Part shown: positions 8,189 through 56,254 of the stretch, piece after piece | Layout: each line of letters starts with the position of its first letter | Numbering within the stretch: position 1 is the first letter of the stretch | NCBI RefSeq assembly: GCF_900109285.1 | Contig: NZ_FNZQ01000008.1 | Span: 1-64,000 of the forward strand | Source of the DNA: Jannaschia helgolandensis | Lineage (GTDB): Bacteria; Pseudomonadota; Alphaproteobacteria; Rhodobacterales; Rhodobacteraceae | Length of the DNA stretch: 64,000 nucleotides | Reading direction: 5' to 3' | Position numbers and translations under genes: made by a program | The notes under the pieces: generated by a model | Told to the model about the DNA's origin: nothing | Database searches by the model: none | What the model saw: the letters and a program-made list of their open reading frames with translations, nothing else

Positions 8189-9331
8189 TTGACCGAAATC
8201 TTCGTCTTTGCCTTCGACCTGACGGAATCGTCACAGATCAGGCGTCTGAAAAGTTTCAGGGCGTTGGGGTATCGTGTTCGCTCTGCTTCCTTCCGACGGG
8301 AAAATATGAACACTGCGTTCGTCCCGGATTGGCCCAACATCGACCTGGGTCTTATGCAGAACGAGCGTTATGGCAGACGGATGATCGGCATCCTGCGCGG
8401 CATCTACCGGGTCATGAAACGTCGCGACGCGTTATCTACAGCCGACGTTATCATCGCTCGCAACTTCGACCTGCTGATCATTGCCTGGATCACCCGTTGG
8501 ATGACCGGGCAGAGTCATGTGCCTTTGGTTTACGAATGCCTGGATATCCACGGCCTGTTCACGCGCCCAGACGCCGTCGGTGCCGCGATGAGATGGTGCG
8601 AACGACGATTGTTGACGCGTGTGCAACTTCTACTGGTATCGTCGCCGGGGTTCATGAGACATTATTTCGAGGCGATACAGGGCTACCAAGGGCAATATGC
8701 GATTCTGGAAAACAAGCTCTGGTTCGATGAAGATCCGATTCCCCGCCCGCCGATGCGGCGCAGCAGATCGTCCGATACGCCCCTGACGATCGGTTGGGTC
8801 GGATCGATCCGCTGCGCACCAAGCCTGAACCTCCTGATGGAAACCGCCGATCATTTCGGAGATCGGGTCGCCATAGAAATCCATGGCAATATCCATCGCC
8901 ACACTTTGCCGGACTTTGACGAACAAATCGACCGGCGCGACAACGTCAGTTACTTTGGCCCGTACGAGTATCCAGATGGTTTGGCCGAGGTTTATGGCCG
9001 GTGCGATCTGGTCTGGGCGCAGGACCTCTGGCAGCGGGGTGCAAATTCCGATTGGCTTCTGCCCAACCGAATTTATGAAGCAAGCTGGTTCGGTTGCCCT
9101 TCCATTGCGGTGGCCGGGACCGAGACCGCACGCAAGGTCGCACGGAATTCCCTGGGGTTCGTGGTGGATGAACCGTCCGCCAAGGCGCTGATCAGTCTTT
9201 TGGACGGCTTGGATCGCGGCGCAGTTAGGGCGATGTCCGACAGTATCCTCTCTATGGAGGATACCGAGTTCCGGCTTACCCCTGACGCAATCAGAGTGGC
9301 GCTCCAGCCTGCTTTGTCGGCGAGCAGCTAA
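8189..9331 (+). CDS. GT-B fold glycosyltransferase (GT4-like) of the exopolysaccharide locus
   Basis: A 380-residue cytoplasmic protein with no membrane helix or signal. The N-terminal half contains FAFDLTESSQIRRLKSFRALG, like other GT4 donor/acceptor domains, and a YECLDIHG segment. The C-terminal half has the Rossmann-type IGWVGSIR block (about 200) and the LPNRIYEASWFGCPSIA segment (about 290) that binds the nucleotide sugar in GT4 enzymes. The start is TTG 8189 with AAGGA upstream; no ATG fits as well. It is the first gene of the exo locus but is separated from exoY by 533 bases, so it is probably transcribed on its own. The sugar transferred is unknown. Confidence 0.8.
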   Translation: MTEIFVFAFDLTESSQIRRLKSFRALGYRVRSASFRRENMNTAFVPDWPNIDLGLMQNERYGRRMIGILRGIYRVMKRRDALSTADVIIARNFDLLIIAWITRWMTGQSHVPLVYECLDIHGLFTRPDAVGAAMRWCERRLLTRVQLLLVSSPGFMRHYFEAIQGYQGQYAILENKLWFDEDPIPRPPMRRSRSSDTPLTIGWVGSIRCAPSLNLLMETADHFGDRVAIEIHGNIHRHTLPDFDEQIDRRDNVSYFGPYEYPDGLAEVYGRCDLVWAQDLWQRGANSDWLLPNRIYEASWFGCPSIAVAGTETARKVARNSLGFVVDEPSAKALISLLDGLDRGAVRAMSDSILSMEDTEFRLTPDAIRVALQPALSASS

Positions 9332-9864
9332 GGCTCTGCTTTGGCGTAGTACCGTTTCGCCACGTTCAGGTGTGGTCGGCGCAGTGCGGAAGCTGTGCCG
9401 CCCTGACCTACACGGTATTGCCCGACCCATGGAAACCGTTGCAGAGTTTTGCGTTGTTTACCCGTCCGCGTCACATGCTCGACGCTAAAACTGTCAGTAT
9501 TGTCCCATAATGCGACCAAGGCAAAACGCTCTTTGCAGGGATCGGAATGCTGCGGTGCAGATTCAAGCGTAACTCTGCCTAAACGGTAAGTAAAAAGTTT
9601 CGAAGTGTCGGCGGGTTTCCGTCACTTCAGCGCCTACAAGGCATACGTGACGTTAACCCTTTGATTTATATAAAAAAACATTCTTTATGCATGTGCAATT
9701 TGACTGCCAAGCGCATGAATTATGAGCAATTCAGAATCACGCCCGCACATTCAATGGCCGTTTTTCGCCAATTTATAAAAAATCATAGATGAAATGCTGC
9801 ACCTGCAAAATTGTCGGTAGAGCATGGAAAAGCGAATGTCGATTCTGAATACAGGAGTTAGGTC
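9332..9864. promoter_or_regulatory. AT-rich upstream region of the exoY-exoF operon
   Basis: A 533-base stretch without a gene. Positions about 9590-9860 are clearly richer in A and T than the surroundings (runs such as ATATAAAAAAA near 9668 and TTTATAAAAAA near 9771), typical of a regulated promoter region. No unambiguous -35/-10 pair or palindromic operator could be fixed by eye. It probably drives exoY, exoF, the flippase and the pyruvyl transferase. Confidence 0.5.
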
Positions 9865-10566
9865 ATGCCATCCACTAGTTTGAGAAACCTCGTCAAAGAG
9901 GGTCTGTCTGAATCAACGTCGATCGCAACCGGAATCACACGCGCGGACACAGTGCTTGGTGGCCCTGCAAAGCGAGGTCTCGACCTGGCTGTCGCGCTGA
10001 TTGCACTGGTCCTCCTGGCACCTTTGTTTCTCTGGGCCGCACTTGCCGTGAAACTAACGTCACGGGGACCGATCTTATATGGGCATTCGCGCGTCGGTCA
10101 TGGCGGACGGGTATTCAAATGCTGGAAATTCCGGTCCATGGTAATAAACGGTGATGACGTTCTCGGTGAATATCTGGCCACCCACCAGGATGAGCGAAAC
10201 GAGTGGCTGCGCAGCCGTAAACTTCGCAACGACCCCCGTGTCACCCGTATCGGAGCCGTGCTGCGCGCTTACAGTATCGACGAGCTTCCACAGATCATCA
10301 ATGTGCTGATGGGCGACATGAGCCTTGTTGGCCCTCGCCCCGTGGTCCGGGACGAACTGGCGATGTATGGGGCGGCAGCCAATCTCTATCTTCAGACACG
10401 ACCAGGCATCACTGGTCTCTGGCAGGTCAGCGGGCGCAGTGACGCGACTTATGAACAGCGCGTTTCCTACGATACGCTATATGTTCAGCAGTGGTCCATG
10501 CGTCAGGATGTTGCAATTCTGGCGAAAACGGTTCCCGCAGTTATCTCGTCCAAAGGGTCTTACTGA
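9865..10566 (+). CDS. exoY: Undecaprenyl-phosphate sugar-1-phosphate transferase (priming enzyme), ExoY-like
   Basis: A 233-residue bacterial sugar transferase (polyprenyl-phosphate hexose-1-phosphate transferase family). One membrane segment (about residues 35-58) is followed by the cytosolic catalytic domain, with KFRSMV, the SIDELPQIINVL block, GDMSLVGPRP and GITGLWQVSGRS, all hallmarks of the family. It loads the first sugar of the repeat unit on the lipid carrier at the inner membrane. The ATG follows AGGAG. In succinoglycan systems ExoY transfers galactose; that specificity is an extrapolation here. exoF follows after 26 bases. Confidence 0.93.
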   Translation: MPSTSLRNLVKEGLSESTSIATGITRADTVLGGPAKRGLDLAVALIALVLLAPLFLWAALAVKLTSRGPILYGHSRVGHGGRVFKCWKFRSMVINGDDVLGEYLATHQDERNEWLRSRKLRNDPRVTRIGAVLRAYSIDELPQIINVLMGDMSLVGPRPVVRDELAMYGAAANLYLQTRPGITGLWQVSGRSDATYEQRVSYDTLYVQQWSMRQDVAILAKTVPAVISSKGSY

Positions 10567-10592
10567 TCCTGGACTGTAATTCTGGATAAATC

Positions 10593-11825
10593 ATGCCCTT
10601 GAAAAACCGCATCCGCTGCTCCGCCATTTTCATCGTTGCGCAGTTTCTGGCAACTGTGGGCTGGGCCCAAGTCTATCGTGTCGGCATTAATGACACCCTG
10701 AATATCCAGATTGCCGTCTGGGATGCCGGGAAGACCGAAGTCGTGGATACCTACGAGTTTTCGGACAGCTATCCGGTCGGGGCTGACGGAGATATTGCAG
10801 TGACCCTCGTCGGTTCGTTGGTGGTTGAAGGTATGACGACCACCGAAGTGGCGAAGGCGCTGCAAGAGGCCATGAAACCTTTCACCGGAATTGGCCAGAC
10901 CCCTCATGCCGCAGTCAGTGTCGAGCGCTATGCGCCGATCTATGTCGATGGAGACGTACAACAGCCCGGCGTCTATGACTACGCGCCCGGCCTTACGGTG
11001 CAAAAGGCCGTGACACTGGCCAGTGGACTTTCTGGCGTCAAAGCGCTCGACGGCGAGGAACGGAACTACCTGAATGCACGCGGCACCATCCGTGTCCTTC
11101 AGAGAGAACTGACATTCCTGACGGCAAAACGCGACAGGCTGATGGCGGAAATTAACGGAGACGCCGATTTCGGGACCCCTGATTCCGATCTCGATCCGGT
11201 CGCACAAGCCGCGGAATCCATTATCCTGCAAGCCAGAAATACCCGGTACGATCACGAAGTGACGTCGTTGGCACGGTCGCGAGCGGCGCTTGAAGGTGCG
11301 TTACAGGTCCTGGAGGACAAGCTTACGACCAATCGCGAACAACTCGAAGCTGGACAGGCCGAATTGCAACGCGAGGAACAGCTGGCCGAACGTGGCCTGG
11401 TCGCATCGACACGGGTCTTTGAACGGGCATCCTATGTGAACGAGCTGGAAAGTCGCTTGCTCGATATCGAACGATCGATCCTTTCAGCGCGACAGGAAAT
11501 GCAGGGATACGAGCGCAACGAGGGTCTGCTAATGGCTGTTCGCAACGAGGAGAACGCGATGACCTTGCAGCAGGTCAACACCAGCATTGCCGGGGTCGAG
11601 GCGAAGCTTGACGGTCAATACGACCTTTTGGCAGCGGCTGCGGGCCAGCAAATCGGCCAGGTTCCTGCGCTCGACCCCTCAACGGCCACGATCAGCTATA
11701 CGATCACCCGCGTGCGCGGGGACGATCCGGCACCTTTCGTGGGTGACCCCAGCGATGTGCTCATGCCCGGCGATGTTGTCGAGGTGGACCTGGACTCCTA
11801 CGCCGAAGCCCCGCCGTCCAATTGA
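10593..11825 (+). CDS. exoF: Polysaccharide export protein, ExoF-like
   Basis: A 410-residue exported protein. A signal peptide (about 1-25, ending near WAQ) is followed by the polysaccharide-export (poly_export) domain (about 27-115) and a second ligand-binding (SLBB-like) segment with VDGDVQQPGVYDY (about 117-130). A long charged, probably coiled-coil stretch (about 165-330) follows, and the protein closes with a short beta-rich tail. This long helical insert distinguishes ExoF-type proteins from Wza. It probably connects the inner-membrane ExoP complex to the outer membrane for chain export. It is co-transcribed with exoY and the flippase, which begins 10 bases downstream. Confidence 0.9.
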   Translation: MPLKNRIRCSAIFIVAQFLATVGWAQVYRVGINDTLNIQIAVWDAGKTEVVDTYEFSDSYPVGADGDIAVTLVGSLVVEGMTTTEVAKALQEAMKPFTGIGQTPHAAVSVERYAPIYVDGDVQQPGVYDYAPGLTVQKAVTLASGLSGVKALDGEERNYLNARGTIRVLQRELTFLTAKRDRLMAEINGDADFGTPDSDLDPVAQAAESIILQARNTRYDHEVTSLARSRAALEGALQVLEDKLTTNREQLEAGQAELQREEQLAERGLVASTRVFERASYVNELESRLLDIERSILSARQEMQGYERNEGLLMAVRNEENAMTLQQVNTSIAGVEAKLDGQYDLLAAAAGQQIGQVPALDPSTATISYTITRVRGDDPAPFVGDPSDVLMPGDVVEVDLDSYAEAPPSN

Positions 11826-11835
11826 TGGTGCGGGT

Positions 11836-13350
11836 ATGAGCACTCCGGCTGACATCGCAAAACCATCGACACTCGGCCCTGCGGACGATTACCACCCGCA
11901 TCTGACCACGGGACGTTCTGCTTCGGCCATTGTCGGCGTGCTGTGGTCGTCCTTGCAGACGCTTATTCCGACCGTAAGTTCCGCTGTGGTGTTCTTTGTC
12001 AGCGCGATGTTTCTGTCGCCTGCGGATTTCGGACTGGTCGGATTGGCCAGCAGCATCGTGATTTCGGTCGTGGCGTTTTCTCCACTGGCCTTCGGCGAAG
12101 CTCTGATTCAGCGCCGGACGTTGCTGAAATCCCATGCCGACAGCGTTTTCTGGCTGACGGCGGGATTTGGAGTGCTGGCATTCATTCCATTCGTCTTCGG
12201 CGCAGACTTGATTTCAAAGCTGATCGGCGACCCTGCGATTGCGATCATTTTGCCCGTTCTGGCACTTCGCATTCCGCTGGATCTCGCCTCGGCCGTGCCA
12301 AACGCGATGATCGTCCGGTCGATGAAATTCAAGCTGATCGCGATGCGCACTGCTGTGGCGACCATGGTAAGCGTTGTCATCTGTTTGACGATGCTGGTCG
12401 CGGGCTTTGGATACTGGGCGCTGGTCGGCAGTCAGGTCACGGCCAGTCTTGTAACCTGCGCGATGGCTTATTGGGTGTCCGGCTGGAAGCCCGGACTGTC
12501 CGTTACCTGGACTGCCCTTCGGGATGTGTTCGGTAATGGCGCATTCCTGTCCGGAGACCGGATGTTGTCGACGATCAAACTCGACCACCTGGTGCTGGGC
12601 ATGTTTGGCGGCACGGTGATCCTCGGCCTGTTCCTCTTCGCGCAGCGGATTTTCAGCATGCTGACGCAACTGATCGGCGGGGCATTGTCGTCCGTCACTT
12701 TTGCCTTGTTGTCGGCGTTGCAAGACGATGCCGACAAGAGCACCCAGGCGTTCGAAATCGCATCCTTCGTATCGGCTGCTGTCAGCCTGCCGATGTTCGT
12801 TGCCCTTGCCATCGTGGCGCAGGACCTGCTTGCTGTGATGCTCGACGAGAAATGGGCGGGCGCGGCCTTCGCGGTGCAGGCATTCAGCGTGGTCGGCGTG
12901 CTGGCGGGCATCGGTGTAGTACAGGCCGCGCTGATCAAGAGCCAAGGTAAGCCTCAGTGGTGGTTCTATTATCAGCTTGTTCAACAAACCACGTCAGTCG
13001 CCGTCATTTTGCTGACTTACAGGTTTGGCCTGCCGACGCTGATGATTGTGCTTGTGGCAAAGACCGTCCTTTTCTGGCCGGTGTCTGTGGCCATGACCGC
13101 ACGCCTTCTGAAGCGGAGCGCCTGGAGCTATCTGGCCAGTTTTCAAAATCCCATGGTGGCGACTGCTCTGATGGCGTCCGCCATGATTGCCGTCCCTTCC
13201 GTCTTTCCCGATCTGGGGCAGGCTACAAGACTTGGCCTCCAGTTGGCCCTGGCCGTCGTCATCTACTGTCCAGCGATCCTGCTTCTATCGCGCGCCCGGA
13301 TGCGCGAACTCCGCAGTTTTCTACCCACCAAAGGGAACACCACCGCATGA
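11836..13350 (+). CDS. Lipid-linked repeat-unit flippase, Wzx/ExoT family
   Basis: A 504-residue polytopic membrane protein of the MATE-like polysaccharide transporter group, with about 12-14 hydrophobic segments. The N-terminal FLSPADFGLVGLASS block and the following GFGEAL-type segment are typical of the WzxC/ExoT branch. ATG 11836 is used; the much longer frame from 11587 would overlap exoF and lacks a start signal. Its stop overlaps the next ATG by four bases. It is expected to move undecaprenyl-linked repeat units across the inner membrane. Confidence 0.9.
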   Translation: MSTPADIAKPSTLGPADDYHPHLTTGRSASAIVGVLWSSLQTLIPTVSSAVVFFVSAMFLSPADFGLVGLASSIVISVVAFSPLAFGEALIQRRTLLKSHADSVFWLTAGFGVLAFIPFVFGADLISKLIGDPAIAIILPVLALRIPLDLASAVPNAMIVRSMKFKLIAMRTAVATMVSVVICLTMLVAGFGYWALVGSQVTASLVTCAMAYWVSGWKPGLSVTWTALRDVFGNGAFLSGDRMLSTIKLDHLVLGMFGGTVILGLFLFAQRIFSMLTQLIGGALSSVTFALLSALQDDADKSTQAFEIASFVSAAVSLPMFVALAIVAQDLLAVMLDEKWAGAAFAVQAFSVVGVLAGIGVVQAALIKSQGKPQWWFYYQLVQQTTSVAVILLTYRFGLPTLMIVLVAKTVLFWPVSVAMTARLLKRSAWSYLASFQNPMVATALMASAMIAVPSVFPDLGQATRLGLQLALAVVIYCPAILLLSRARMRELRSFLPTKGNTTA

Positions 13351-14249
13351 AACTGACATATTTTCAGGGCGATCCGCCCAACTTTGGGGACGAACTGAAC
13401 GCGACCATGTGGTCACACCTTCTGCCCGCCGGTTTCTTTGACGACGACGCATCCAAACTGTTCATTGGAATCGGTTCGATTATCCAGCACGGCTATCCGA
13501 AGGACGCGCGAAAAATTGTCGTCGGCTCCGGCTATGGTGGCTATACCATTAAGCCGGATGTTCACGACGGCAGTTGGGACTTTCACTTCGTGCGTGGCCC
13601 CCAGACGACCGAGGCCTTGGGCCTGAACCCTGATCTGGCCATCGCCGATTCTGCAATTCTGTTGCGCCAGACGCCCTTGCCCGCGCCAGCGACTGACATC
13701 AAGATCGGCTTCATCCCGCACTACGAAAGTATCGAGCGGGGCAACTGGAAGGTCGCCTGCGATCTGGCGGGCATCAGTTTCATCGACCCGACAGACCCGC
13801 CCGAGCGCATCATTCAGCAGATTCTGGGTGCCAAACTCGTCATCACAGAAGCGATGCACGGTGCGATCGTGGCCGATGCTCTGCGCACCCCGTGGATCGC
13901 CGTCCGGACCATGCATCACATCCATCGGTTCAAGTGGTACGATTGGGTCAAGTCCCTGGACATCGACTACCAGCCTGCCTTCCTGTTTCCGTCGAACCTG
14001 CGCGAAAGCTGGGCCGTCACCACCGGGCGGTCCGGGTCGGGACCGCGCGCCAAGGCGGCTTGCACCAGCAAACTGGCGCAGCCTTTGAATAACGCCTGTC
14101 ACCACATGGCAGCGCGCAGCCTGCAAAAGCTGGCGCAGATGAGGCCAAGCCTTTCGACGGACGCCAATATCGAACGGGCCACGGATCAGGCCATGTCGGC
14201 CATCGACGGTCTGATCGCCAAATATGGGCGCAAGGTCGCGTTTGCCTAG
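13347..14249 (+). CDS. Polysaccharide pyruvyl transferase, ExoV-like
   Basis: A 300-residue protein beginning MKLTYFQGDPPNFGDELN, the typical N terminus of ExoV-type polysaccharide pyruvyl transferases. It also carries FIGIGSI, the HFVRGPQT block and the central ITEAMHGAIVADAL motif with its conserved Glu and His. It would add a pyruvate ketal to a sugar of the repeat unit, using phosphoenolpyruvate. It is translationally coupled to the flippase (ATGA overlap). Its 3' end overlaps the convergent polymerase gene by four bases. Confidence 0.9.
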   Translation: MKLTYFQGDPPNFGDELNATMWSHLLPAGFFDDDASKLFIGIGSIIQHGYPKDARKIVVGSGYGGYTIKPDVHDGSWDFHFVRGPQTTEALGLNPDLAIADSAILLRQTPLPAPATDIKIGFIPHYESIERGNWKVACDLAGISFIDPTDPPERIIQQILGAKLVITEAMHGAIVADALRTPWIAVRTMHHIHRFKWYDWVKSLDIDYQPAFLFPSNLRESWAVTTGRSGSGPRAKAACTSKLAQPLNNACHHMAARSLQKLAQMRPSLSTDANIERATDQAMSAIDGLIAKYGRKVAFA

Positions 14250-15475
14250 GTGCCGCGCCGATGGGCATCCAGCCCGCGCGTGGCATAGACAAACGCGCAT
14301 ATCACGATGACAGTCCGCAGCGAAAACTGAAAGAAAACATTAACTTCCACAAAGCTCAACATGACGATCATCGCGACCAGAACGAACAGTAACGACGCCT
14401 CGGCAAGGCGGGTGCGCAAGGCCCAGAGACCAGTTGCCAGAGCAGCCCCATAAAGCACGACAACCTGTAGAAAGACGCCGAGTACCCCGATCTCCACTGC
14501 ATTGGACAAATAGGTGTTGTGAAAATTGAAGCCGCTTCGACTTTCGATCGCGAAATTGTACCACAAGACCTCGGCCGGGGCGTAACCCTTGACCCAGAAT
14601 GCCTGGTATCCGATGCCAAAAAACGGACGTTCCGCGATCAGTTCTCTGGCAATCCGCCAAAGATCGGTTCGGCCCGTCAAGGTCACATCCTTGCCAGTCG
14701 TCTCCAGCAACAGGTCTAAAAGCGCATCGGCGTAGATCGTCACGAGTAGAGCCATCATCGCCGCCAACAATACAGCGAATGTCATCGCAACAAGGCGTTG
14801 AACGACAGACAGCCGATAGATGAGCAGAAGCGAAAACAGCAGGAAAAGCGCAGGCGGCACCACGATCAGCGCGCCTGTCGACTGAGCAAGTAAAAGCAGC
14901 ATGGCGCCGATCATCAACCCGAGAACTGCCATCAGCCGATGACCATTGGAGGCCGTGCGGTCCAATATCTGAGAGGTACAGACAATCACATAGGTCGCAG
15001 CCTCGCCTGCCAGTGCATTCTTGCTGCCGTAGATTCCCAACCAGGCCCCTGTGTCGCTGCGTACATCGCCGAACAGGATGCTGGTCAGCATCGCAAGAGA
15101 GAACACTCCGAACAATGCGCGGCTGAACGCACGCGCCGACGTGGTCGAAGCCATTGCAATCGCGATCAGCACAGTCGCCGTCAGTTGGACACCGAAGCGG
15201 AAGGAGATTGCAGGATATTGTGACCAGACCGCCGACAGCAGGCAGAATATCGGCAATGCCATCAGATACCAGTATCTGATGCAAAGGTTCAGCACGATCT
15301 GGATGCGACGAACCAGCAGCGCGCATCCTCCGGTCAGAAAAATCAACGCACCGTAAGTTTCCAGGGCGGGAATGAAAACGAGGCCAAAAAGGGCGATCAC
15401 CAGAAGAACCACATCCGGTTCGACCGTGATTACGTCAATGCCGGTGCCCGGCCGATCTGCGCGGATGCTACTCAT
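14246..15475 (-). CDS. Exopolysaccharide polymerase, Wzy/ExoQ family (O-antigen ligase-like)
   Basis: A 409-residue membrane protein with about 10-11 hydrophobic segments and one large extracytoplasmic loop (about residues 245-305) containing TLTGRTDLWRIA and FGIGYQAFW, the signature of the Wzy_C/O-antigen ligase superfamily. GIYGSKNALAGE (about 165) is also typical of ExoQ proteins. The start is placed at 15473-15475, where ATG overlaps the end of the GH16 gene (ATGAGTAG); a longer frame from 15532 lies inside that gene. It probably joins repeat units into chains in the periplasm. Confidence 0.87.
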   Translation of the reverse strand: MSSIRADRPGTGIDVITVEPDVVLLVIALFGLVFIPALETYGALIFLTGGCALLVRRIQIVLNLCIRYWYLMALPIFCLLSAVWSQYPAISFRFGVQLTATVLIAIAMASTTSARAFSRALFGVFSLAMLTSILFGDVRSDTGAWLGIYGSKNALAGEAATYVIVCTSQILDRTASNGHRLMAVLGLMIGAMLLLLAQSTGALIVVPPALFLLFSLLLIYRLSVVQRLVAMTFAVLLAAMMALLVTIYADALLDLLLETTGKDVTLTGRTDLWRIARELIAERPFFGIGYQAFWVKGYAPAEVLWYNFAIESRSGFNFHNTYLSNAVEIGVLGVFLQVVVLYGAALATGLWALRTRLAEASLLFVLVAMIVMLSFVEVNVFFQFSLRTVIVICAFVYATRGLDAHRRGT

Positions 15476-16274
15476 TCTTGCAGACGACCGAGGACGGAAA
15501 TTGGCAGGCGTCCCCCTGCGCAGTGAATGCAATCCAGTCGACTTCCATCTTCAGATCGGTTTCCGGCTCCACGAACCGGCCCATCCAGTCCGGAAAACTG
15601 TCGCTTCCCCAGAAGCTGGCGTAGATCTTCTGCCCGTTCGTGGGCAGTACGGCTTCGGGTGGCGTCTGATGCACCAGCTCACCGTCTACATACCATTTTA
15701 TCCCGGTCGGCTGCCACACAAACGAATAGGTCAGGAACGCATCATCGGCAGGCATGGGCAACGCCACCTGTTTGCCGTTCATGGGGGTTCCGTCGACATA
15801 GGTATTCAAACTGACTGAACTCGTATCGCGGGCCAGGACCTCGAAATCGATCTCGTCATGCGGCTTGCCATGGTATGGACCAATATAGGTGAAGAAAGCC
15901 GCATTCAGGCCCGACCCGGCCGCGGTTCGGTATCGCGCCTCGTATGTACCATATCCATAGACATTCAGTGATTGAATCTCGCCGCAGCTATAGTCGCGCT
16001 GATCACCCGTCCACCCTGAGAAAGCCAACGTCAGCATCCCTTCTTTGACGGCAACGTTGTCGCCAGACCAGACGCAGTTTTGCCAATCACCATTGGCCCA
16101 CCCGTCAGAAATCCCCCAGAGCGACTTATCCAATGTTTCGAAATCGTCGAAGAAACTGGCACCTTGCGGTGTTTCCTGTGAAAATACCGGCAAGGGAAGC
16201 AAAAAAACAAAGCTAATCACGCATTGCTTTGACGACTTTATCACCCTGCCGACATTTTTTGACGCCTGAATCAT
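15468..16274 (-). CDS. exoK: Secreted family 16 glycoside hydrolase, ExoK-like endo-beta-glycanase
   Basis: A 268-residue exported enzyme. ATG at 16272-16274 is chosen because GGAGG sits six bases upstream. The signal peptide ends near residue 33 (PVFSQ). The catalytic GH16 motif EIDFE is at residues 141-145, with the two Glu as nucleophile and acid/base. Flanking Trp-rich segments (NGDWQN, FWGSDSFPDWMG) line the sugar cleft. In succinoglycan systems ExoK cuts nascent polymer to adjust chain length. Here it is coupled to the polymerase gene (8-base overlap), which fits that role. Confidence 0.92.
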   Translation of the reverse strand: MIQASKNVGRVIKSSKQCVISFVFLLPLPVFSQETPQGASFFDDFETLDKSLWGISDGWANGDWQNCVWSGDNVAVKEGMLTLAFSGWTGDQRDYSCGEIQSLNVYGYGTYEARYRTAAGSGLNAAFFTYIGPYHGKPHDEIDFEVLARDTSSVSLNTYVDGTPMNGKQVALPMPADDAFLTYSFVWQPTGIKWYVDGELVHQTPPEAVLPTNGQKIYASFWGSDSFPDWMGRFVEPETDLKMEVDWIAFTAQGDACQFPSSVVCKNE

Positions 16275-16451
16275 TCCGGTCCTCCGAATACAATTATTCA
16301 GCAATGTCTATACAGCCGAAATACGCTCCGCAAAGCTGGACGGCTTGCTCCGGCGCGTGCCCGCCGAAAGCCCCCGGATATGGGCAGGCCTATGGGAGTT
16401 CGGCTGCGAGAGTCTATCCTTTGAGTCAAACCGATATCCGAAAGTGCTGAT
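16275..16451. promoter_or_regulatory. Divergent promoter region between exoK and a glycosyltransferase
   Basis: A 177-base gap between two divergent exo genes, so it must hold promoters for both. No clear operator palindrome was seen. Confidence 0.4.
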
Positions 16452-17477
16452 TTGAAAAACCTTGCCGAACCGCCTCTGGTTTCCGTCATCATGGCGAATT
16501 ACAATGGTGCGGACCACCTTGCCATGGCGCTCCGGTCTGTGCTGGCTCAATCGGTCGGGCATATCGAAATTCTGCTGCTGGATGATGCTTCGAGCGACGA
16601 TAGCATCAAGGTTGCGCGTGGGGTCGCGGACACCGATCCCCGCGTCCGCATTTTTGAAACGTCCCGGAATGCCGGACCCGGTGCTGCGCGAAATCGTGGC
16701 TTTGAAATGGCTACTGGCAGATGGATTGCCATTGTCGACAGTGACGACATCATTCATCCATGTCGGCTTGAACGGATGACGACCGCCGGTGATGCGCTGG
16801 AAACCGACGCCGTGGCGGACGATCTGACCTATTTCCACGACGCCAGCATTCGGCCAGCAGGCACCCTTATGGGCACGAACCGTCCGGAAAAGCCCGCTGG
16901 ATTGTCAGCAACCTGTTTCGTATCGGCCGATCCGAACGCGCCGCAACTGGGTTATCTCAAACCTCTGATCCGTCGTACTGCGTTATCGGGGTTGCGCTAC
17001 CGCGAAGATATCAAAATCGGCGAAGATCATGATTTATATATGCGTTTTCTCTTGAATGGTGGGCGAATGCACCTACTGCCGCAGTCCTATTACCTGTATC
17101 GTAGGCATAACAGTTCCTTGTCGTACCGAATGCATCCCGACGACGTTGCCGCAATAATCTCTGCGCAGGACGATCTGTTGAGGGATTATCCGGATCTGTC
17201 CGATGGAATGCTTGATCACATGGCGCTTCGCCGCGCCGCGTTACAACGCCCGCTGGCCTTCGAAACACTGGTGCAAGAAATTCGCGGTCGCCATTTCGGT
17301 CGCGCAATGGGGCAATTGGTCCACCGACCTTCTTTGCTGCCCCAACTTGTCAAAGTTGGCAAATCCCGTCTGGCACGCGCGCTTGTGCGGCCCAGAAATG
17401 CGTCTGCAGTCATTGCCCGCGACCCATCGGAATGGACGCTGCAAGACTGGTCTGTAATGTTGGAGAAAACGATGTGA
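16452..17477 (+). CDS. Family 2 glycosyltransferase (ExoO-like)
   Basis: A 341-residue GT-A enzyme. SVIMANYNGA (about 11-20), DDASSDDS (about 44-51) and the metal-binding VDSDD (about 96-100) are the nucleotide-sugar motifs. GEDHDLYMRFL (about 190) is the acceptor-side ED motif. The start is TTG 16452; no better codon lies nearby. It stands alone between exoK and the small repressor-like gene, in the opposite direction. It resembles succinoglycan transferases such as ExoO, but the linkage formed is not predictable. Confidence 0.85.
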   Translation: MKNLAEPPLVSVIMANYNGADHLAMALRSVLAQSVGHIEILLLDDASSDDSIKVARGVADTDPRVRIFETSRNAGPGAARNRGFEMATGRWIAIVDSDDIIHPCRLERMTTAGDALETDAVADDLTYFHDASIRPAGTLMGTNRPEKPAGLSATCFVSADPNAPQLGYLKPLIRRTALSGLRYREDIKIGEDHDLYMRFLLNGGRMHLLPQSYYLYRRHNSSLSYRMHPDDVAAIISAQDDLLRDYPDLSDGMLDHMALRRAALQRPLAFETLVQEIRGRHFGRAMGQLVHRPSLLPQLVKVGKSRLARALVRPRNASAVIARDPSEWTLQDWSVMLEKTM

Positions 17478-17512
17478 TTGTTTGTGCTGCCCACACTAAG
17501 CAACATGGCTGA

Positions 17513-17764
17513 TCATTGTTTCTGTCTTCCTACCAAGGGATCGTTGCCCTTGGTCTTCGTTCTCGCATCGGACGGCTTCGGTTTCCGAGGCCGAACGAGC
17601 CCGCTGACAAGTGCCAGCAGAAAGTACGCGGTCTGCAGAACCACCAATACTGCGACAACACGCAGCACGATGACCCAAAATCCGGACCCAGCAAAATATG
17701 ACCCGATCGCCGTCACGATGGCGGCAATCAGCATGAAACATATGAACACAGACAAACGCACCAA
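17513..17764 (-). CDS. Small membrane protein, exopolysaccharide production repressor (ExoX/SyrA-like)
   Basis: An 83-residue protein with two closely spaced hydrophobic segments (about residues 5-24 and 29-54) and a basic, hydrophilic tail. The spacing, the LLQ-x-YF-like sequence at the end of the second helix (here VLQTAYFLLAL) and the genomic position recall the small inner-membrane exopolysaccharide regulators ExoX and SyrA. In rhizobia ExoX acts post-translationally on the ExoY step. It lies 72 bases upstream-side of exoP's 3' end. The assignment rests on topology and context, so it is moderate. Confidence 0.65.
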   Translation of the reverse strand: MVRLSVFICFMLIAAIVTAIGSYFAGSGFWVIVLRVVAVLVVLQTAYFLLALVSGLVRPRKPKPSDARTKTKGNDPLVGRQKQ

Positions 17765-17836
17765 CCTAATCCCCCAATAAGGCTGGCTCAGTCTACGCTA
17801 TGTCAGGCTATCGTGCCATCGTTACGCGGTAACGCG

Positions 17837-19804
17837 TCAAACGAGTGTCGAATCTGCTTCGGTATAACTTTCGGGCCATCCAGGACGGGCGTATTTCGAC
17901 AACTTCTGAATATCCACTCTGTTCAGAGCTACCCCGATGATTTTCTTTGCGATCTCAGACTCATGGGCAAGATACTGCGTCACGAGAGACCGGGGGGTCC
18001 TGCCCCAGTCACACACCAGAACGATCTGGTCGATATGTGCGATCATGGCCTTGGCCTCGGCCGATTTTCCCAAGGGCGGCATATCCAGAACGATACAATC
18101 GTAATGATTTCGCAGTTCCGCCATCAAAGCCCGCGCGTTCTGCTGATAGAGAATGTCCCCCGCGACCGATTGCTCGCGGTCGGGACCGGGCAACAGAATG
18201 TGCAGGTTTGTGAACGGCAGCACATGGATTGCGTCAGGCAGCGGAGCCCGGCCGCGAAGCACGTCCACAACGCCAGGACTCTCTGGAAGCCGAAGCGACG
18301 TGCTCAGGCCGGAACCCCTGATGTCCGCATCCATCAGCAAGACGCGCGCCCCCGACTTCGCCAGCATGTTGGCGTAATTCATAGCCACAGTCGTCTTGCC
18401 TTCGTCCGGCAACATCGACGTGAACGCGACGACGTTGCAAAGGCTGTCCCCAGATTCCAGTCCGATTGTGGAATGGATATTTCTCAGCGTGCCGCTGAAC
18501 GTCGACTGCGGCATCAGCACGGACCAGAACAGTTCCGGCGACAGGGTCTTCGCCTCTTGCCATTCCGCCTCCATCGACGATGCGTCGGACGGAGCCGCAT
18601 CGTCACCCTCTGGCGAACCGCCAGAATGGGTCTGTTCGTTCAGAACGATCGCACTGGTTTCGGGCGGCGGCCTGTCGGAAAGATTTTTCAGATCGATCCG
18701 GGGCAAATGTCCCAGAAACGACTTTCCGGTGTGGTTGTAGACCTCGGTGCTGACGCGGAAGGCCTGTTCTCGCATTTCACGCAGAACGGCGATGGCGAAT
18801 CCCAGCATGAGACTAAGCAATATCGCGACCGCCAGCGTCCGGGACAGCTTGGGTAGGGCCGGGTTCTTGGGCACCGGCGACCGTGTCAGGATACGACCGT
18901 TGGTGACCGGAAACGACCCTTGGATGGACACTTCCTGATACCGGGCCGCGATCGTTTGATAGAGCGAATTCAAGGTCGATTCCCGCTGCGCCAACTGGCG
19001 CAGCTGCGCAACCTGGGTCGGGTCGCTCTGACGCAGGGCCGCGGCCTCGGCCTGAATTTCGGCGGCACGCTGTTCAAGTTCGGCCAGGCGCCGGACCATC
19101 CACTCCGCCGTCTGTTCGGTCGACTCGACGTTGGCGTTCAGGTGGTCTGCAAGATAGGCTTCTGCGTAGGTATTCACGATCTGCGACGCCAGTTCCGGAT
19201 CATGGCCGATGTAGGCGATGTTGATCGAAAAACTCAGCCCGATCCGTTCGATAATGATATTGCCCTGAAGTTTCGACGCCGCGCCAAGAATGCGCGCCTC
19301 CTGCTGTTGCTCCGCAGTCAGGGTGGGCACCGGGTCTTCCGACCTGACAAGTCCCATGATTCCCGAAACGATGTTGCGCGCCAGAGAAGACGGCGGAAAA
19401 AGGAACAGATCACTGTTCTGCAAATCCGTGCGGCGCACGACCTCGGTGGCAAGCTGCAGGGATTTCAAAACCTGAATCTCATTCAGGAACGAAGTATCAT
19501 TGCGCGCGAAAGGAATGCTGGCTGTGACCTGTTGATCAATCTCACTGCGCCGGTCGTCGACCAAAACGGTGGCCGAAGCATAATACTGCTTGGGCGTCGT
19601 CGCATAATGAACGAGCCCAATCAACAATCCGATCAGGACACTCACGAATAAGGGGACGGCCTGGCGCCGCGCGGAAGCCAGCACATCGCCAAGGGTCGTC
19701 GCCTCGCCTGCCGCCCGTTGCTGCAGACGTTCCGCCTCCAGATCGGCATCGCGGATTCTCAAACCGATTTCCTTCATGGCATCAAAACCGATCCGCTCAT
19801 TCAT
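17837..19804 (-). CDS. exoP: Polysaccharide co-polymerase with ATPase domain, ExoP/Wzc-like
   Basis: A 655-residue inner-membrane protein. A short cytoplasmic N terminus is followed by membrane segment 1 (about 40-60), a large periplasmic Wzz-type domain with coiled coil (about 70-390), and membrane segment 2 (about 395-415, after a PxxP-type stretch). A cytosolic BY-kinase-type ATPase follows: Walker A LPDEGKTT (about 465-472), Walker A' VLLMDADIRG (about 488-497) and Walker B IVLDMPP. The C terminus has only two Tyr (SKY and ESY), not the Tyr cluster of Wzc. The start at 19804 overlaps the upstream gene's stop (ATGAATGA). It sets chain length and couples polymerisation to export through ExoF. 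Confidence 0.92.
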   Translation of the reverse strand: MNERIGFDAMKEIGLRIRDADLEAERLQQRAAGEATTLGDVLASARRQAVPLFVSVLIGLLIGLVHYATTPKQYYASATVLVDDRRSEIDQQVTASIPFARNDTSFLNEIQVLKSLQLATEVVRRTDLQNSDLFLFPPSSLARNIVSGIMGLVRSEDPVPTLTAEQQQEARILGAASKLQGNIIIERIGLSFSINIAYIGHDPELASQIVNTYAEAYLADHLNANVESTEQTAEWMVRRLAELEQRAAEIQAEAAALRQSDPTQVAQLRQLAQRESTLNSLYQTIAARYQEVSIQGSFPVTNGRILTRSPVPKNPALPKLSRTLAVAILLSLMLGFAIAVLREMREQAFRVSTEVYNHTGKSFLGHLPRIDLKNLSDRPPPETSAIVLNEQTHSGGSPEGDDAAPSDASSMEAEWQEAKTLSPELFWSVLMPQSTFSGTLRNIHSTIGLESGDSLCNVVAFTSMLPDEGKTTVAMNYANMLAKSGARVLLMDADIRGSGLSTSLRLPESPGVVDVLRGRAPLPDAIHVLPFTNLHILLPGPDREQSVAGDILYQQNARALMAELRNHYDCIVLDMPPLGKSAEAKAMIAHIDQIVLVCDWGRTPRSLVTQYLAHESEIAKKIIGVALNRVDIQKLSKYARPGWPESYTEADSTLV

Positions 19805-20720
19805 GGGTCCTGGAGGTGAATTGCGGGGCATACAGTCGCAGCGGGCGGCCACCAGCCAAACCCGCAAGTGCACCGACGTGTAGCGCTCCGCGCAGGATCG
19901 CCTGATTGCGCCGATCGACGCTGAAGACCTGAACCGCAGCCGCGCCCGCACAATATAGCGCCTTTGCCGTCGTCACCGGAATCTGCCGCACTGCGCGTCG
20001 CGTTCCCGAGATCGACCAGACATGCGTCTGCCCCATTCTGAAACGGCGGCGCAGCAGCCAACCCAAGGTCGCGCGGTCCTCGGGGACGTCTTCGCGCACG
20101 ACGGCCTCGGGCGCGAACGCGATCCGACCCCCATCGGCCACGACACCGGCGAAGAATGTCGAGTCCTCTCCGCCCGTCTGCCCGAGCTCAAGGTCAAACA
20201 CCCGATTTTGCAGGGCAGCACCCTGTCGATCGATCAGCACGTTGCCGGTATAGCCTGTGAGGATCACACCTTCGATCCAGACGGGTGTTGTGCCGTGGAT
20301 TTCCGTTCGGCGCATCCAGGCGGGTGCGGCCTTGGAATAGACCGCCTCAATCGGCCCAAGGACGACATCGACATCGTCCCGCTCCATAGCTCCCACAAGA
20401 TGTACCAGCCATTCCGGCGAAGCGACCTCGTCGTCGTCTATAAACGCCAGATATCGCGCGGCACTGTGGGACAAGGCCCCGTTCCGCGCGATCGAGATGT
20501 TGCCCTGCGGACAATGCACATGACGCAGCGGGAACGGTGCGCTCTCAGCCATTGCTTCGACGTCGGCCCGCGCACTGGGCGTGTCGTCGTTGTCGATCAC
20601 CAGAACCGATACCGCGAACCCCGGCGGCGGGGTCAGAGCGAAGAGCGACGCAAGGGTATTCGACACCTGCGGGCGGCGATAGGTGCAGACGCAGATCTCC
20701 AGCTGCCTGTCCCCGGTCAT
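19797..20720 (-). CDS. Family 2 glycosyltransferase (ExoM-like)
   Basis: A 307-residue GT-A transferase. ICVCTYRRP (about 9-17), VIDNDDTP and the metal-binding FIDDDEVAS (about 92-100) identify the donor site; GGEDSTFF (about 205) is the ED-type acceptor motif. The start is ATG 20718-20720, overlapping the stop of the upstream exoA-like gene (ATGA). The longer open frame runs back inside exoA and is not used. It resembles ExoM, which adds glucose in succinoglycan assembly; the sugar here is uncertain. Confidence 0.85.
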   Translation of the reverse strand: MTGDRQLEICVCTYRRPQVSNTLASLFALTPPPGFAVSVLVIDNDDTPSARADVEAMAESAPFPLRHVHCPQGNISIARNGALSHSAARYLAFIDDDEVASPEWLVHLVGAMERDDVDVVLGPIEAVYSKAAPAWMRRTEIHGTTPVWIEGVILTGYTGNVLIDRQGAALQNRVFDLELGQTGGEDSTFFAGVVADGGRIAFAPEAVVREDVPEDRATLGWLLRRRFRMGQTHVWSISGTRRAVRQIPVTTAKALYCAGAAAVQVFSVDRRNQAILRGALHVGALAGLAGGRPLRLYAPQFTSRTHE

Positions 20721-52349: not shown

Positions 52350-53054
<705 letters not shown>

Positions 53055-53060
53055 AGGTCG

Positions 53061-53088
53061 GCTTCGAGCCCGAAGCTGCAAATTTTTT
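53061..53088 (+). terminator. Rho-independent terminator of bluB
   Basis: GCTTCG (53061-53066) pairs with CGAAGC (53071-53076) over the loop AGCC, followed by a six-T run at 53083-53088. It marks the boundary between the core bluB gene and the AT-richer islet. Confidence 0.75.
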
Positions 53089-53210: not shown

Positions 53211-55049
53211 CTAGCTCGCCAAAAGCGTCAGCGCGCCAACCAAGAAAGTGGCAAGTCCAAAGCCGATTAACTTCTGGAAATGGAACCAGCTTTCTACCAA
53301 CCAGCTCCCGTGGTCGATAGCTTTGTGCTTCTCGCTGAACTCGACTAGCGGCAAAGCGGTTTCGAGCGAGTACCAGAATTTCAGATGGAGCGGCCTGAGA
53401 AGCTCCGCGCTGCTGAACAAAGCAATCATGAAGCCAATGACGACGAGCGTGAAATACCAGTACACAGCGAAGAACGGGTAGACGCCATAGCCAACGACCC
53501 AACGCGATGAAGCGCGGGCTAGGGCGACCATAAAAAATTCGCTGTCTTGTGACAGATCGCGATGGCGGAACTTAGCATAGCGAATAGCTTTAGCCTTGCT
53601 CACTTGGCCGTTCTCACCCAGCACATCGGCTAGCTGCTCGTAAGGCTGTGGATCATAGCGATCGTCGCCCAGTCTGATGCCTACGAGCCAGTTCACAAGC
53701 CCCGCGGCGGTTTCGTCGCTCAGCGTATTGGCTACTCCGCCGAGCAGTCCCGCGAGGCGATCGTATGTGAAGCCGGAGAGGTCGGCTGAGATCCAACCGC
53801 CTTCCTTGTTCCGCCAAGAGGAAGTCCGAGACTGTAATACCACGACCGCGGTGTTGCGCAGATTAAGCCGCGCATTGACGCTCCAGATCGGATCATCAGT
53901 GTGATAGCGCCCTTCGCTGACCATGTTGGGCTGAAAAAGTACAATCTCATTAGCCGAACTTGCGGAAAAATCGAAATCGCCGTCGAACTTGCTTCCGGCC
54001 AGCAGCAGTGCTCCGGAGATGGATGCGCGAGAGATGTTCACCCTTTGAAAAGACGAGCCGCCTCGGAGAAATAGGTCGCGACCGACCGAAAGTCCTTCCG
54101 CGATGAACGAGCCCTCGAAGGTGGAGCCCATGGCATCCACCTGACCACCCACCTGAGCCCCATGAAGGGACACATCTTTGCTGGCTACAACCCCACTTAG
54201 CCCAATGCCACCTCCGACCGAAAGGTTGTCAGCACGGAGTGAGCCCTCGAAGTTCGAGCCGTTCGCGATCACCGAATTCCCCACATGCGCACCGCTAAGA
54301 TCGACGTCTTGAAATGACAGAACTTCTGTAAGATCTAAAGTGCCACCAACCGAAAGGCGTACCGCTCGGAACAACCCCTCGAAGGTCGAACCGCTAGCAT
54401 TTAACGAACCCCCTACTTTCGCGCTGTTTATGTCAACATCTCGAAAAGAAGCGCCGCCAAGATAAAGGTCGCCGCCGACCGAAAGCCCTTGCGCTGAGAA
54501 ACCGTATTGGAAGGCTGTGAAAGAAGAGGATGAAGGTCCAAAGGACGAGCCTATGAAACTCAAATCGCGATCAAAGTTAGCTCTAGTAAATGTGGCACCG
54601 CGGGGCATGTGGCTTTGTATCAGCGCAAATGATGGGGAGACTTTGACGTTATCCAGCTCGAGCGGTCCCCCCAACTTGGCGCACTGGATGAGCACCTGGG
54701 GCTTGGCAAGAGCCTCTACCCAGTGGGCGCGGGTAAGAATGAGGCGCAGGAATTCGGGACTGAGTACCCGGTGCTTAGGCACCTCCCCCTCAATCTCCGC
54801 AGGATTACAAGGCAGTTTATCAAAGCCGTCGGGCCCAGCCAACGCCATGCTTGCGATGCGGCCTCGACAGACTTGTTCCCATGCCCATTTCTCACCCTCA
54901 GTCCAACCTCCTGCAGGGCCGGGTTGGACTAAGTCGATTGGGCAAGCGTCGTCCCCAGGCATTGAGAAGGCACGCTCGAGAGTTTGTGCAATAGAGGGTG
55001 GAGCAAGAGTTACCGTTGTCAAAAGCAAACTCGCAATGAAAGTACGCAT
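53211..55049 (-). CDS. Exported repeat (beta-solenoid-like) protein with C-terminal membrane segments
   Basis: A 612-residue protein not matched to a named function. A signal peptide (about 1-21) precedes an extracytoplasmic region with four Cys (36, 61, 81, 123). Residues about 188-357 hold four 44-residue repeats with the pattern LSVGG, then V(D/S)(I/L), then a STFEG-like end, resembling a translocated pentapeptide-type solenoid. Next is DLSGFTYDRL (about 423-432), then DPQPYEQLADVLGENG (about 466-481), then two hydrophobic segments (about 520-545 and 593-612). The block order recalls proteins annotated as membrane-associated or pentapeptide-repeat proteins in other phyla; this is from memory. 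Base composition is visibly more AT-rich than both neighbours, suggesting transfer. It is alone, bounded by the bluB terminator and a quinone reductase gene. Confidence 0.8.
   Translation of the reverse strand: MRTFIASLLLTTVTLAPPSIAQTLERAFSMPGDDACPIDLVQPGPAGGWTEGEKWAWEQVCRGRIASMALAGPDGFDKLPCNPAEIEGEVPKHRVLSPEFLRLILTRAHWVEALAKPQVLIQCAKLGGPLELDNVKVSPSFALIQSHMPRGATFTRANFDRDLSFIGSSFGPSSSSFTAFQYGFSAQGLSVGGDLYLGGASFRDVDINSAKVGGSLNASGSTFEGLFRAVRLSVGGTLDLTEVLSFQDVDLSGAHVGNSVIANGSNFEGSLRADNLSVGGGIGLSGVVASKDVSLHGAQVGGQVDAMGSTFEGSFIAEGLSVGRDLFLRGGSSFQRVNISRASISGALLLAGSKFDGDFDFSASSANEIVLFQPNMVSEGRYHTDDPIWSVNARLNLRNTAVVVLQSRTSSWRNKEGGWISADLSGFTYDRLAGLLGGVANTLSDETAAGLVNWLVGIRLGDDRYDPQPYEQLADVLGENGQVSKAKAIRYAKFRHRDLSQDSEFFMVALARASSRWVVGYGVYPFFAVYWYFTLVVIGFMIALFSSAELLRPLHLKFWYSLETALPLVEFSEKHKAIDHGSWLVESWFHFQKLIGFGLATFLVGALTLLAS
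53979..54488 (-). repeat. Four tandem 132-bp coding repeats in the solenoid gene
   Basis: The 44-residue protein repeat is visible in DNA as a 132-bp period. On the plus strand the conserved block GAGCCCTCGAAG starts at 54109 and 54241, and its variant AACCCCTCGAAG starts at 54373. LSVGG starts at residues 189, 232, 276 and 320 and the FEG/FDG ends at 223, 267, 311 and 355. Copies have diverged in the centre. Confidence 0.75.
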
Positions 55050-55267: not shown

Positions 55268-56254
55268 ATGACCCTCCCCACCACCATGCGCGCCGTCGAG
55301 ATCACCGCTCCCGGTGGCCCCGACGTCCTCCAGATCACCACCCGCCCGGTGCCGACCCCCGGCCCCGGCGACATCCTGATCGCCGTTGACCATGCAGGTG
55401 TGAACCGGCCCGATGCCCTGCAACGCGCCGGGGCCTATGACCCGCCGAAAGGTGCCAGCGACCTGCCCGGTCTGGAATGTTCCGGCACCGTCGTCGCCAC
55501 CGGTCCGAACGTCAGCCGCTGGCACGCGGGCGACAAGGTCTGCGCCCTGTTGCCCGGAGGCGGATACGCCGAATATGTCACCACCCCCGCAGACCACGCG
55601 CTGCGCATCCCCGAGGGGATGAGCATGGCGCAGGCCGCCGCCCTGCCCGAGACCTATTTCACCGTCTGGACCAATGTCTTCGACCGGGGCGGCCTGCACG
55701 GCGGCGAGCGCTTCCTCGTCCACGGCGGCACGTCGGGCATCGGCACGACCGCGATCCAGCTGGCCCGCAGCTTCGGCGCGCGGGTCTTCTCCACCGCCGG
55801 AAGCGATGAAAAGGTCGCCGTCTGCGCCGACCTCGGGGCCGAGGCCATCAACTACAAGGACGTCGATTTCGTCGATGTCCTGCGCGAGGCGGGCGGCGCG
55901 AACCTGATCCTCGACATGGTCGGCGGCGATTACATCAACCGCAACATCAGGGCGCTGGCCGATGACGGACGGCTGGTGCAGATCGCCTTCCTGACCGGCC
56001 CCAGGGCCGAGGTAAACTTCGCCCAGATCATGGTCCGCCGCCTGACCGTCACCGGCTCCACCCTGCGCCCGCAATCCAGCCTGGCCAAGGCCCGCATCGC
56101 CGACAGTCTGCGCGACAAGGTCTGGCCCCTGCTGGATGCCGGAAGCGTCGCGCCGGTGATGGACCAGACCTTCGATCTGGCGGACGCCGCCAAGGCCCAC
56201 GCAAGGATGGAAGCCGGCGATCATATCGGCAAGATCACCCTCAAGGTGCGCTGA
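55268..56254 (+). CDS. Quinone oxidoreductase, zeta-crystallin type (MDR family)
   Basis: A 328-residue medium-chain reductase lacking zinc ligands. AGVNRPDALQRAGAYDPP (about 43-60) and GLECSGTV are the substrate-domain blocks. HGGTSGIGTTAIQLA (about 152-166) is the NADPH-binding motif AxxGGxG-like of the QOR branch. It probably reduces quinones or enones with NADPH. It stands alone, followed after 112 bases by the alpha-hydroxy-acid oxidase gene on the same strand. Confidence 0.92.
   Translation: MTLPTTMRAVEITAPGGPDVLQITTRPVPTPGPGDILIAVDHAGVNRPDALQRAGAYDPPKGASDLPGLECSGTVVATGPNVSRWHAGDKVCALLPGGGYAEYVTTPADHALRIPEGMSMAQAAALPETYFTVWTNVFDRGGLHGGERFLVHGGTSGIGTTAIQLARSFGARVFSTAGSDEKVAVCADLGAEAINYKDVDFVDVLREAGGANLILDMVGGDYINRNIRALADDGRLVQIAFLTGPRAEVNFAQIMVRRLTVTGSTLRPQSSLAKARIADSLRDKVWPLLDAGSVAPVMDQTFDLADAAKAHARMEAGDHIGKITLKVR

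Follow-up and report, generated by a model that had tools for sequence, protein, structure and literature searches.

Analysis of a 64,000-nucleotide stretch of the Jannaschia helgolandensis genome (contig NZ_FNZQ01000008.1; hereafter the window, meaning this stretch at its full length) points to a gene that may encode an exported, self-contained, receptor-channel-like protein, in which a solenoid would gate an inverted pore with an altered filter, and which sits in the genome as a one-gene islet. We regard the chances of this reading as evenly balanced.

The gene is an open reading frame of 612 amino acids with zero internal stops (Table 1), and a search of the organism's own genome found one copy. 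A first-pass annotation of the sequence had described a signal peptide, four cysteines, four 44-residue repeats, and a DPQPYEQL-type block, all of which hold, the first of them as a signal-like start. This signal-peptide-like start is present by eye and by hydropathy, and cysteines occur at positions 36, 61, 81, and 123 and nowhere else. The repeats are evident from autocorrelation: when residues 140-375 are compared with themselves 44 positions along, the identity is 0.32, whereas the highest value reached in 500 shuffles was 0.179. The units begin at residues 186, 230, 274, and 318, and repeats at the DNA level are spaced 129-132 nt apart or double that, in agreement with a 44-residue unit. 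The block reads PQPYEQL at residues 467-473. PF13576 (Pentapeptide_3) matches the protein with an E-value of 1.8e-10 and 41.3 bits against a cut-off of 27, by which, at the sequence level, it is a pentapeptide-repeat protein in the Pfam sense; PF00805 reaches 15.7 bits, under its cut-off of 20.2. PF13576 was also matched in 36 of 47 family members at E 1, and an NCBIfam search of the window protein returned nothing at E 1.

Table 1. Coordinates in the window of the gene, the parts of its product, and its immediate surroundings.
Feature	Position	Strand	Basis
bluB, left neighbor	52359..53054	+	TIGR02476, E 3.1e-86
Terminator-like hairpin 3' of bluB	53059..53078	+	
Gene for solenoid and P-loop-channel-like membrane protein, 612 aa	53211..55049	-	ORF, relatives, AlphaFold2
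Signal-peptide-like N-terminus, ~residues 1-21	54987..55049	-	Hydrophobic 12-mer score 2.13 after positive start
Predicted N-cap domain, ~residues 30-117, E.W.W motif, Cys36, 61, 81	54699..54962	-	AlphaFold2
Predicted beta-solenoid, ~residues 118-432, Pentapeptide_3	53754..54698	-	AlphaFold2, PF13576
Four 44-residue repeats, residues 186-361	53967..54494	-	Autocorrelation and unit list
Predicted TPR-like helices, residues 448-500, PQPYEQLA block at 467-474	53550..53708	-	AlphaFold2
Predicted slide-type amphipathic helix with GYG at its end, residues 506-522	53484..53534	-	AlphaFold2
Predicted M1, residues 526-543	53421..53474	-	Both AlphaFold2 models
Predicted pore helix, residues 554-565, and altered filter stretch, 566-572	53334..53390	-	Both AlphaFold2 models
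Predicted M2, residues 583-611	53217..53303	-	Both AlphaFold2 models
qor, PIG3-type quinone oxidoreductase, right neighbor	55268..56254	+	TIGR02824, E 7e-141

The gene stands alone between the terminator-like hairpin of bluB and qor, as the first-pass annotation had it; the hairpin search gives 5 such sites in the region against 3.1 expected. When the interval is compared across the genus, qor is found in 20/20 genomes, and the window gene lies within 1.5 kb either side of it in none of the 19 congeners. Two of these (L010 and L016) have an empty site in which bluB is followed directly by qor, and a gene that in the window comes before bluB (putatively TetR/Coq9-like, in our own labeling) occurs at most 1.5 kb from qor in 13 of the 19, L010 and L016 included. 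The 1.5 kb upstream of qor in the 19 congeners (L009-L027) contains bluB in 2, the bluB-preceding gene without bluB in 11, and neither in 6. The gene is also more AT-rich than its neighbors, as had been claimed, with a GC content of 55.5% against 67.1% for bluB and 68.9% for qor. Among 40 window ORFs of at least 250 aa (its own included; the set was chosen greedily by length and some ORFs are antisense) it has the second lowest GC and the fourth lowest GC3, yet the first 28 kb of the window are also at 53-63% GC, so its composition is low locally rather than unique. Because the gene is missing beside qor in all 19 congeners, the site is empty in two of them, and GC is low relative to the neighbors, these sequence comparisons make it likely that the islet gene was acquired rather than ancestral; loss from the other congeners may be the alternative. 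The description of the gene as transferred fits its presence and absence and its local composition, although a donor was not found and the islet shows no convincing flanking direct repeats or other mobility marks. Elsewhere in the window, among 10 ORFs scanned from the first 23 kb, an exopolysaccharide-type gene run at 8189-19951 encodes glycosyl transferases, Poly_export/SLBB, a polysaccharide synthase, a Wzy_C ligase, and a Wzz/AAA kinase, with a GC content of 53-60% (1-kb steps) that is below that of the right half of the window.

The AlphaFold2 model of the full chain, built with 47 aligned sequences, has a pLDDT of 90.3 and a pTM of 0.85, and places along the chain a signal helix, the N-cap, the solenoid, a TPR-like hairpin, an amphipathic helix, M1, a pore helix, and M2. 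The beta-solenoid that had been suspected of the ectodomain is therefore present in the prediction. It is preceded by N-cap helices at residues 51-61, 98-106, and 108-111, with Cys123 just after the N-cap, and followed by the TPR-like helices 448-457, 468-479, and 483-500. The two membrane helices of the first-pass annotation correspond to the long helices M1 and M2; what it had overlooked is the short helix between them, which in the models we read as a pore helix, and with it the P-loop-channel-like predicted fold. G596 in M2 lies at what we take to be a gating-hinge-like place. When residues 497-612 are folded alone the pLDDT is 89.3 and the pTM 0.72, and of the 50 matches listed for this module by Foldseek (from 476 in the PDB), 48 are potassium or NaK channels, comprising Kir, KATP, Kv, KCNQ, KirBac, and NaK, and the last two are separate chains from a single entry whose title says no more than 'transmembrane protein'. 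The listed matches have E-values of 0.06-0.58 and probabilities of 0.47-0.97. With the full chain, also at weak E-values, the most probable listed matches are KvAP (0.96), the LRR protein LRIM1 (0.93), and KCNQ2 chains (0.54-0.80), and in a viral library searched with the module, 7 of 30 matches bear the name of a potassium channel and a further 2 are ion channels, the top match having no name. No match reached E 0.001 with the full chain, with the module alone, or in the viral library. The end module is thus predicted to fold like a potassium-channel pore, M1 - pore helix - M2.

Direct homology to ordinary potassium channels was considered and rejected, the hhalign result being not significant against shuffles. 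Comparison of the module with 21 ordinary channels (from 30 PF07885 loci) gave probabilities of 0.2-3.7 across settings, with a spurious GYG before M1 as the best local match; as controls, 10 CorA proteins taken from 30 loci reached 0.4-0.9. The part from M1 onward scored 14.5 against the 21 channels, where 150 shuffles averaged 11.1 and went up to 18.0. PF07885 (Ion_trans_2) gives no match at E 1 in the window protein, and the 25 families listed for 47 members do not include it. A PDB search with the single sequence found nothing; with a profile, the best match, CydC (E 0.043), was set aside as chance together with MthK (E 3.7-9.7, wrong register). A protein that is CydC-like by eye (L209), a weak match of the module profile, was set aside in the same way.

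A possible link to potassium channels runs through an intermediate group. The module profile finds two pentapeptide proteins, L211 (E 2.9e-4) and L212 (E 8.5e-4), which carry PF07885 at E 4.6e-14 and 2.7e-10 as well as PF00805, and which are laid out as pentapeptide repeats, TPR-like helices, FCGYGxxP, M1, a canonical TTLGYGD pore, and M2. Two further bridging channels (L215 and L216) came to light when 299 genomes were searched. Such pentapeptide-repeat potassium channels with a canonical filter occur in few genomes of other classes; L211 was matched in 5 of the 299 at E 1e-10, in two of them only distantly or in part. In openly licensed PMC papers we found nothing on the four bridging channels, on the family of the window protein, or on bacterial pentapeptide-potassium-channel fusions; papers on KCTD9 deal with a tetramerisation-domain protein, which is cytosolic, and passages of PMC11237479 deal with other proteins. 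Alignment of 88 family C-termini with the four bridging channels by hhalign gave a probability of 89% and a score of 41.7 with 138 columns in register, whereas 200 column shuffles averaged 11.9 and did not exceed 28.3, and the reversed control scored 14.6; a shorter module alignment (A4) reached only 39% and 28.4. The exported branch alone gave 69% and the rest alone 76%, and each of them beat 60 shuffles (34.2 against at most 17.9, and 36.9 against at most 18.6). Masking the GYGxxP stretch left a score of 28.8, where 60 shuffles stayed at or below 16.8; the part from M1 onward by itself scored 13.6, a level that shuffles also attained (up to 15.4). Common descent with the bridging channels is therefore well supported by sequence over the linker and the start of M1. 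Since the score lies there, the proposed kinship of the pore itself rests on the predicted fold and the shared order of parts, not on a sequence score.

The family is patchy in its occurrence. A profile search for relatives, as had been advised, found it in 6 of 60 relatives, 12 of 289 genomes in the class, and 15 of 398 in the phylum (the last with the module profile), with the window's own genome included in all three counts; in the phylum count four genomes have weak matches only (E 1e-4 to 1e-3), two of them to bridging channels and one to L209. Across species genomes, scanning turned up 181 stretches that encode such proteins, of which the best 80 were kept. One congener (G003) holds a distant, signal-less member elsewhere in its genome. 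In a quick tree of 86 C-termini the window protein falls in a branch of 21 (SH-aLRT 98), nearest to L037, L118, and L038 (SH-aLRT 99), which are all alphaproteobacterial and all have signal-like starts. Fifteen relatives from the same branch, one of them incomplete at its start, aligned to the window protein at 26-37% identity. Signal-less members also occur as tandem pairs on one strand in five alphaproteobacterial genomes (L053, L066, L068, L078, and L104), a protein of 575-742 aa followed by one of 641 aa, which suggests a hetero-oligomer.

A partner gene was sought among 20 neighbors of branch members, picked for nearness and strand from 154 ORFs (one of the 154 being L045's own family gene). 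No Pfam family occurred in two loci, and 7 of the 20 had no Pfam family at all. Because the neighbors differ from genome to genome in the sampled loci, the window-type gene seems to act alone. A member from Dadabacteria lies directly downstream of a 427-aa pentapeptide-repeat gene (L044:1507-2787; PF00805, E 1.3e-43). On two rhizobial plasmids, one family gene follows the gene for a trypsin-like plus endonuclease/phosphatase-fold protein (L031:2206-5217), and another comes after papain-like and GDSL plus caspase proteins, with small ORFs between (L032:348-4394). These peptidase-domain neighbors had suggested a conflict system, which we rejected as 12 other loci, with 1-4 neighbors each, show no such genes; the neighbors there serve common metabolism, transport, or the cell wall, include one pentapeptide gene, or belong to no family. 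The first-pass speculation about phage, contact, or stress functions gains no support from these data, which also bear on a reading in that spirit, that this is a surface adhesion, contact, or phage-related protein whose solenoid binds a partner while the helices only tether it. The patchy single-gene occurrence and the two plasmid members would suit such a role, but the neighbors at the 12 other loci speak against it, viral contigs gave no relative (searched with one protein and six patterns), and it leaves the conserved pore-helix region described below unexplained; we consider it most improbable.

In the window family the potassium filter is replaced by [DE]xxxP[IVL][IVL]x[LF]. The GYG-type and other tested G-x-G motifs are absent after the pore helix in the window protein and in 86 of 88 rows of the alignment, and the two remaining rows read PIGGLG, not TxGYG. 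We know of no conducting precedent for this altered filter. Within the replacement, P567 is found in 88/88 rows and D or E at 563 in 86/88 (E563 in the window protein); outside it, Y560 is found in 79 rows, G522 in 88/88, G596 of M2 in all 86 ungapped rows, and the P, Q, and P of the PQPYEQL block in 87/88 with Y in 82/88. Average conservation is 2.02 bits in the pore helix, 2.31 in the stretch that follows, 1.39 in M1, 1.83 in M2, and 2.45 in the TPR-like part. Because the pore helix and the next stretch are better conserved than M1 or M2, the pattern in the alignment favors a working pore over a relic. The main competitor is a protein derived from a potassium channel that has become a non-conducting tetrameric anchor, clustering four solenoids whose binding surface does the work. 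The loss of the GYG-type filter would be natural for such an anchor, as would the missing PF07885 match and the lack of a recurrent family among the 20 neighbors; it should, however, drift in the pore helix and filter place as it does in M1, and P567 is invariant. The TPR-like part, still more conserved, fits either view. On balance we think the anchor rather unlikely, although it deserves to be taken seriously.

Which way up the working pore would sit depends on the N-terminus. With a true signal peptide at the start, the solenoid would be periplasmic, and M1 - pore - M2 would lie opposite to its orientation in potassium channels. Of the 23 members that contain the E.W.W motif, 17 have a hydrophobic start scoring at least 2 (calls by eye and hydropathy, with the threshold set after the values were seen and the cleavage site placed by eye), and L056 and L096, outside this group, also have a signal-like start. 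Upstream frames of the six E.W.W members without the stretch show no clear hidden signal by eye, although for the signal-less L069 a different frame does contain a hydrophobic stretch. On the tree the signal label changes at least four times, with two changes forced by well-supported branches. The cysteines of the N-cap region are also paired in their occurrence: in the 23 members Cys81 and Cys123 are both present in 7, single in 1, and both missing in 15 (Fisher p 3e-5), and Cys36 and Cys61 are both present in 17, single in 3, and both missing in 3 (Fisher p 0.02), counts that were hand-read from an alignment whose rows are not independent, with p-values that ignore kinship. L031 and L119 have no cysteine at any of the four positions of the window protein, and in the N-cap region both have two at other, mutually matching places, perhaps an alternative disulfide.

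The charge around the membrane helices differs in parallel. Flanks-minus-loops charge is 1.29 in 17 signal rows (L096 included), 6.25 in 4 same-branch rows without a signal, and 8.62 in the 65 remaining rows, of which seven have uncertain starts, one of these (L050) in the same branch. If loop residues are counted only where they are near the membrane, the three means become 0.88, 6.25, and 4.38, respectively. Mann-Whitney p-values are 1.3e-9 and 1.2e-5 over all rows; restricted to the branch, with 16 rows set against 4, they are 0.011 and 0.015, the rows being related rather than independent in both cases; a kinship-aware comparison leaves only 2-4 independent pairs and has no power. In the signal rows the ordinary bias is lost or neutralized, not reversed, and L046 and L048 are exceptions to the trend. 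This bears on the alternative that the N-terminal stretch is no functional export signal, so that the solenoid would stay in the cytosol, with the pore helix turned toward the periplasm as it is in potassium channels. Such a channel would agree with the charge before M1, which in signal rows is net positive on average (1.59), with the six E.W.W members that lack a hydrophobic stretch, and with the four bridging channels, which show none by eye. It is harder to square with the signal-like stretch in the other 17, with the co-occurrence of Cys81 and Cys123, and with a charge bias that is much weaker where the stretch is present, and we judge it distinctly unlikely. A broader proposal, which we offer tentatively and at less than an even chance, is that one family holds two orientations, ordinary in signal-less and inverted in signal-bearing members, with a new filter and a beta-solenoid as the sensor that controls the gate, and that it would be a second, independent line of upside-down P-loop channels alongside the glutamate receptors.

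We return to the proposed exported receptor-channel, for which the following mechanism can be envisaged. A periplasmic beta-solenoid, predicted by the model, would carry an N-cap braced by putative disulfides, and a predicted TPR-like hairpin and amphipathic linker helix would join it to the 2TM pore module, a predicted potassium-channel fold in which TxGYG is replaced by [DE]-x-x-x-P-[IVL]-[IVL]-x-[LF]. Four subunits would surround one pore. A change in the solenoid, caused by a ligand, envelope strain, or damage, might pull on the hairpin and linker helix, and this pull could open M2 near G596 to give a leak that is not potassium-selective. With the solenoid placed outside by the signal peptide, the pore helix would dip into the membrane from the cytoplasm, giving an inverted pore, while relatives without a signal peptide would have the same module the ordinary way up. 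The gene would travel as a one-gene islet.

Comparison with known systems helps to place the protein. Actinobacterial members (L034, L105, L111, and L113), of a kind often annotated 'membrane-associated oxidoreductase', belong to the same family by sequence and share the C-terminal module, but show no signal peptide; L034, the only annotated one of the four, is called hypothetical. Because the 25 families listed for 47 members (L105, L111, and L113 included, L034 not) contain no oxidoreductase domain, the name looks misleading, and if our reading is right it can go. The four bridging channels resemble the window protein in having a pentapeptide solenoid, TPR-like helices, a GYGxxP linker helix, M1, a pore helix, and M2, and differ in keeping TTLGYGD, in having no signal peptide by eye, and in their shorter, canonical pentapeptide stretch. 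Inward-rectifier, Kv, and NaK structures have the M1 - pore helix - M2 fold in common with the predicted module (Foldseek), but differ in filter sequence and give no significant direct sequence match. If true, the proposal would supply a mechanism, that of a solenoid-gated, filter-altered channel, for a family that is widespread in bacteria and has no described role, and a family in which both pore orientations might be compared between relatives would bear on the pore flipping proposed for glutamate receptors.

In ionotropic glutamate receptors and GluR0, an exported sensor is combined with an inverted pore of the potassium-channel fold (PMC6385376), and prokaryotic relatives of these receptors have been described (PMC2950845). 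The window protein would likewise place an exported sensor on an inverted potassium-channel-fold pore, export and inversion here being putative readings of the signal-like start. In glutamate receptors, however, a substrate-binding-protein domain is split by the pore, whereas in the window protein a beta-solenoid stands in front of it, with neither a potassium filter nor a substrate-binding domain. It is thus neither a PF07885 channel, given its filter and the missing Pfam match, nor a glutamate receptor, which would have a substrate-binding domain. By analogy, its nearest working model would be a receptor-channel such as GluR0.
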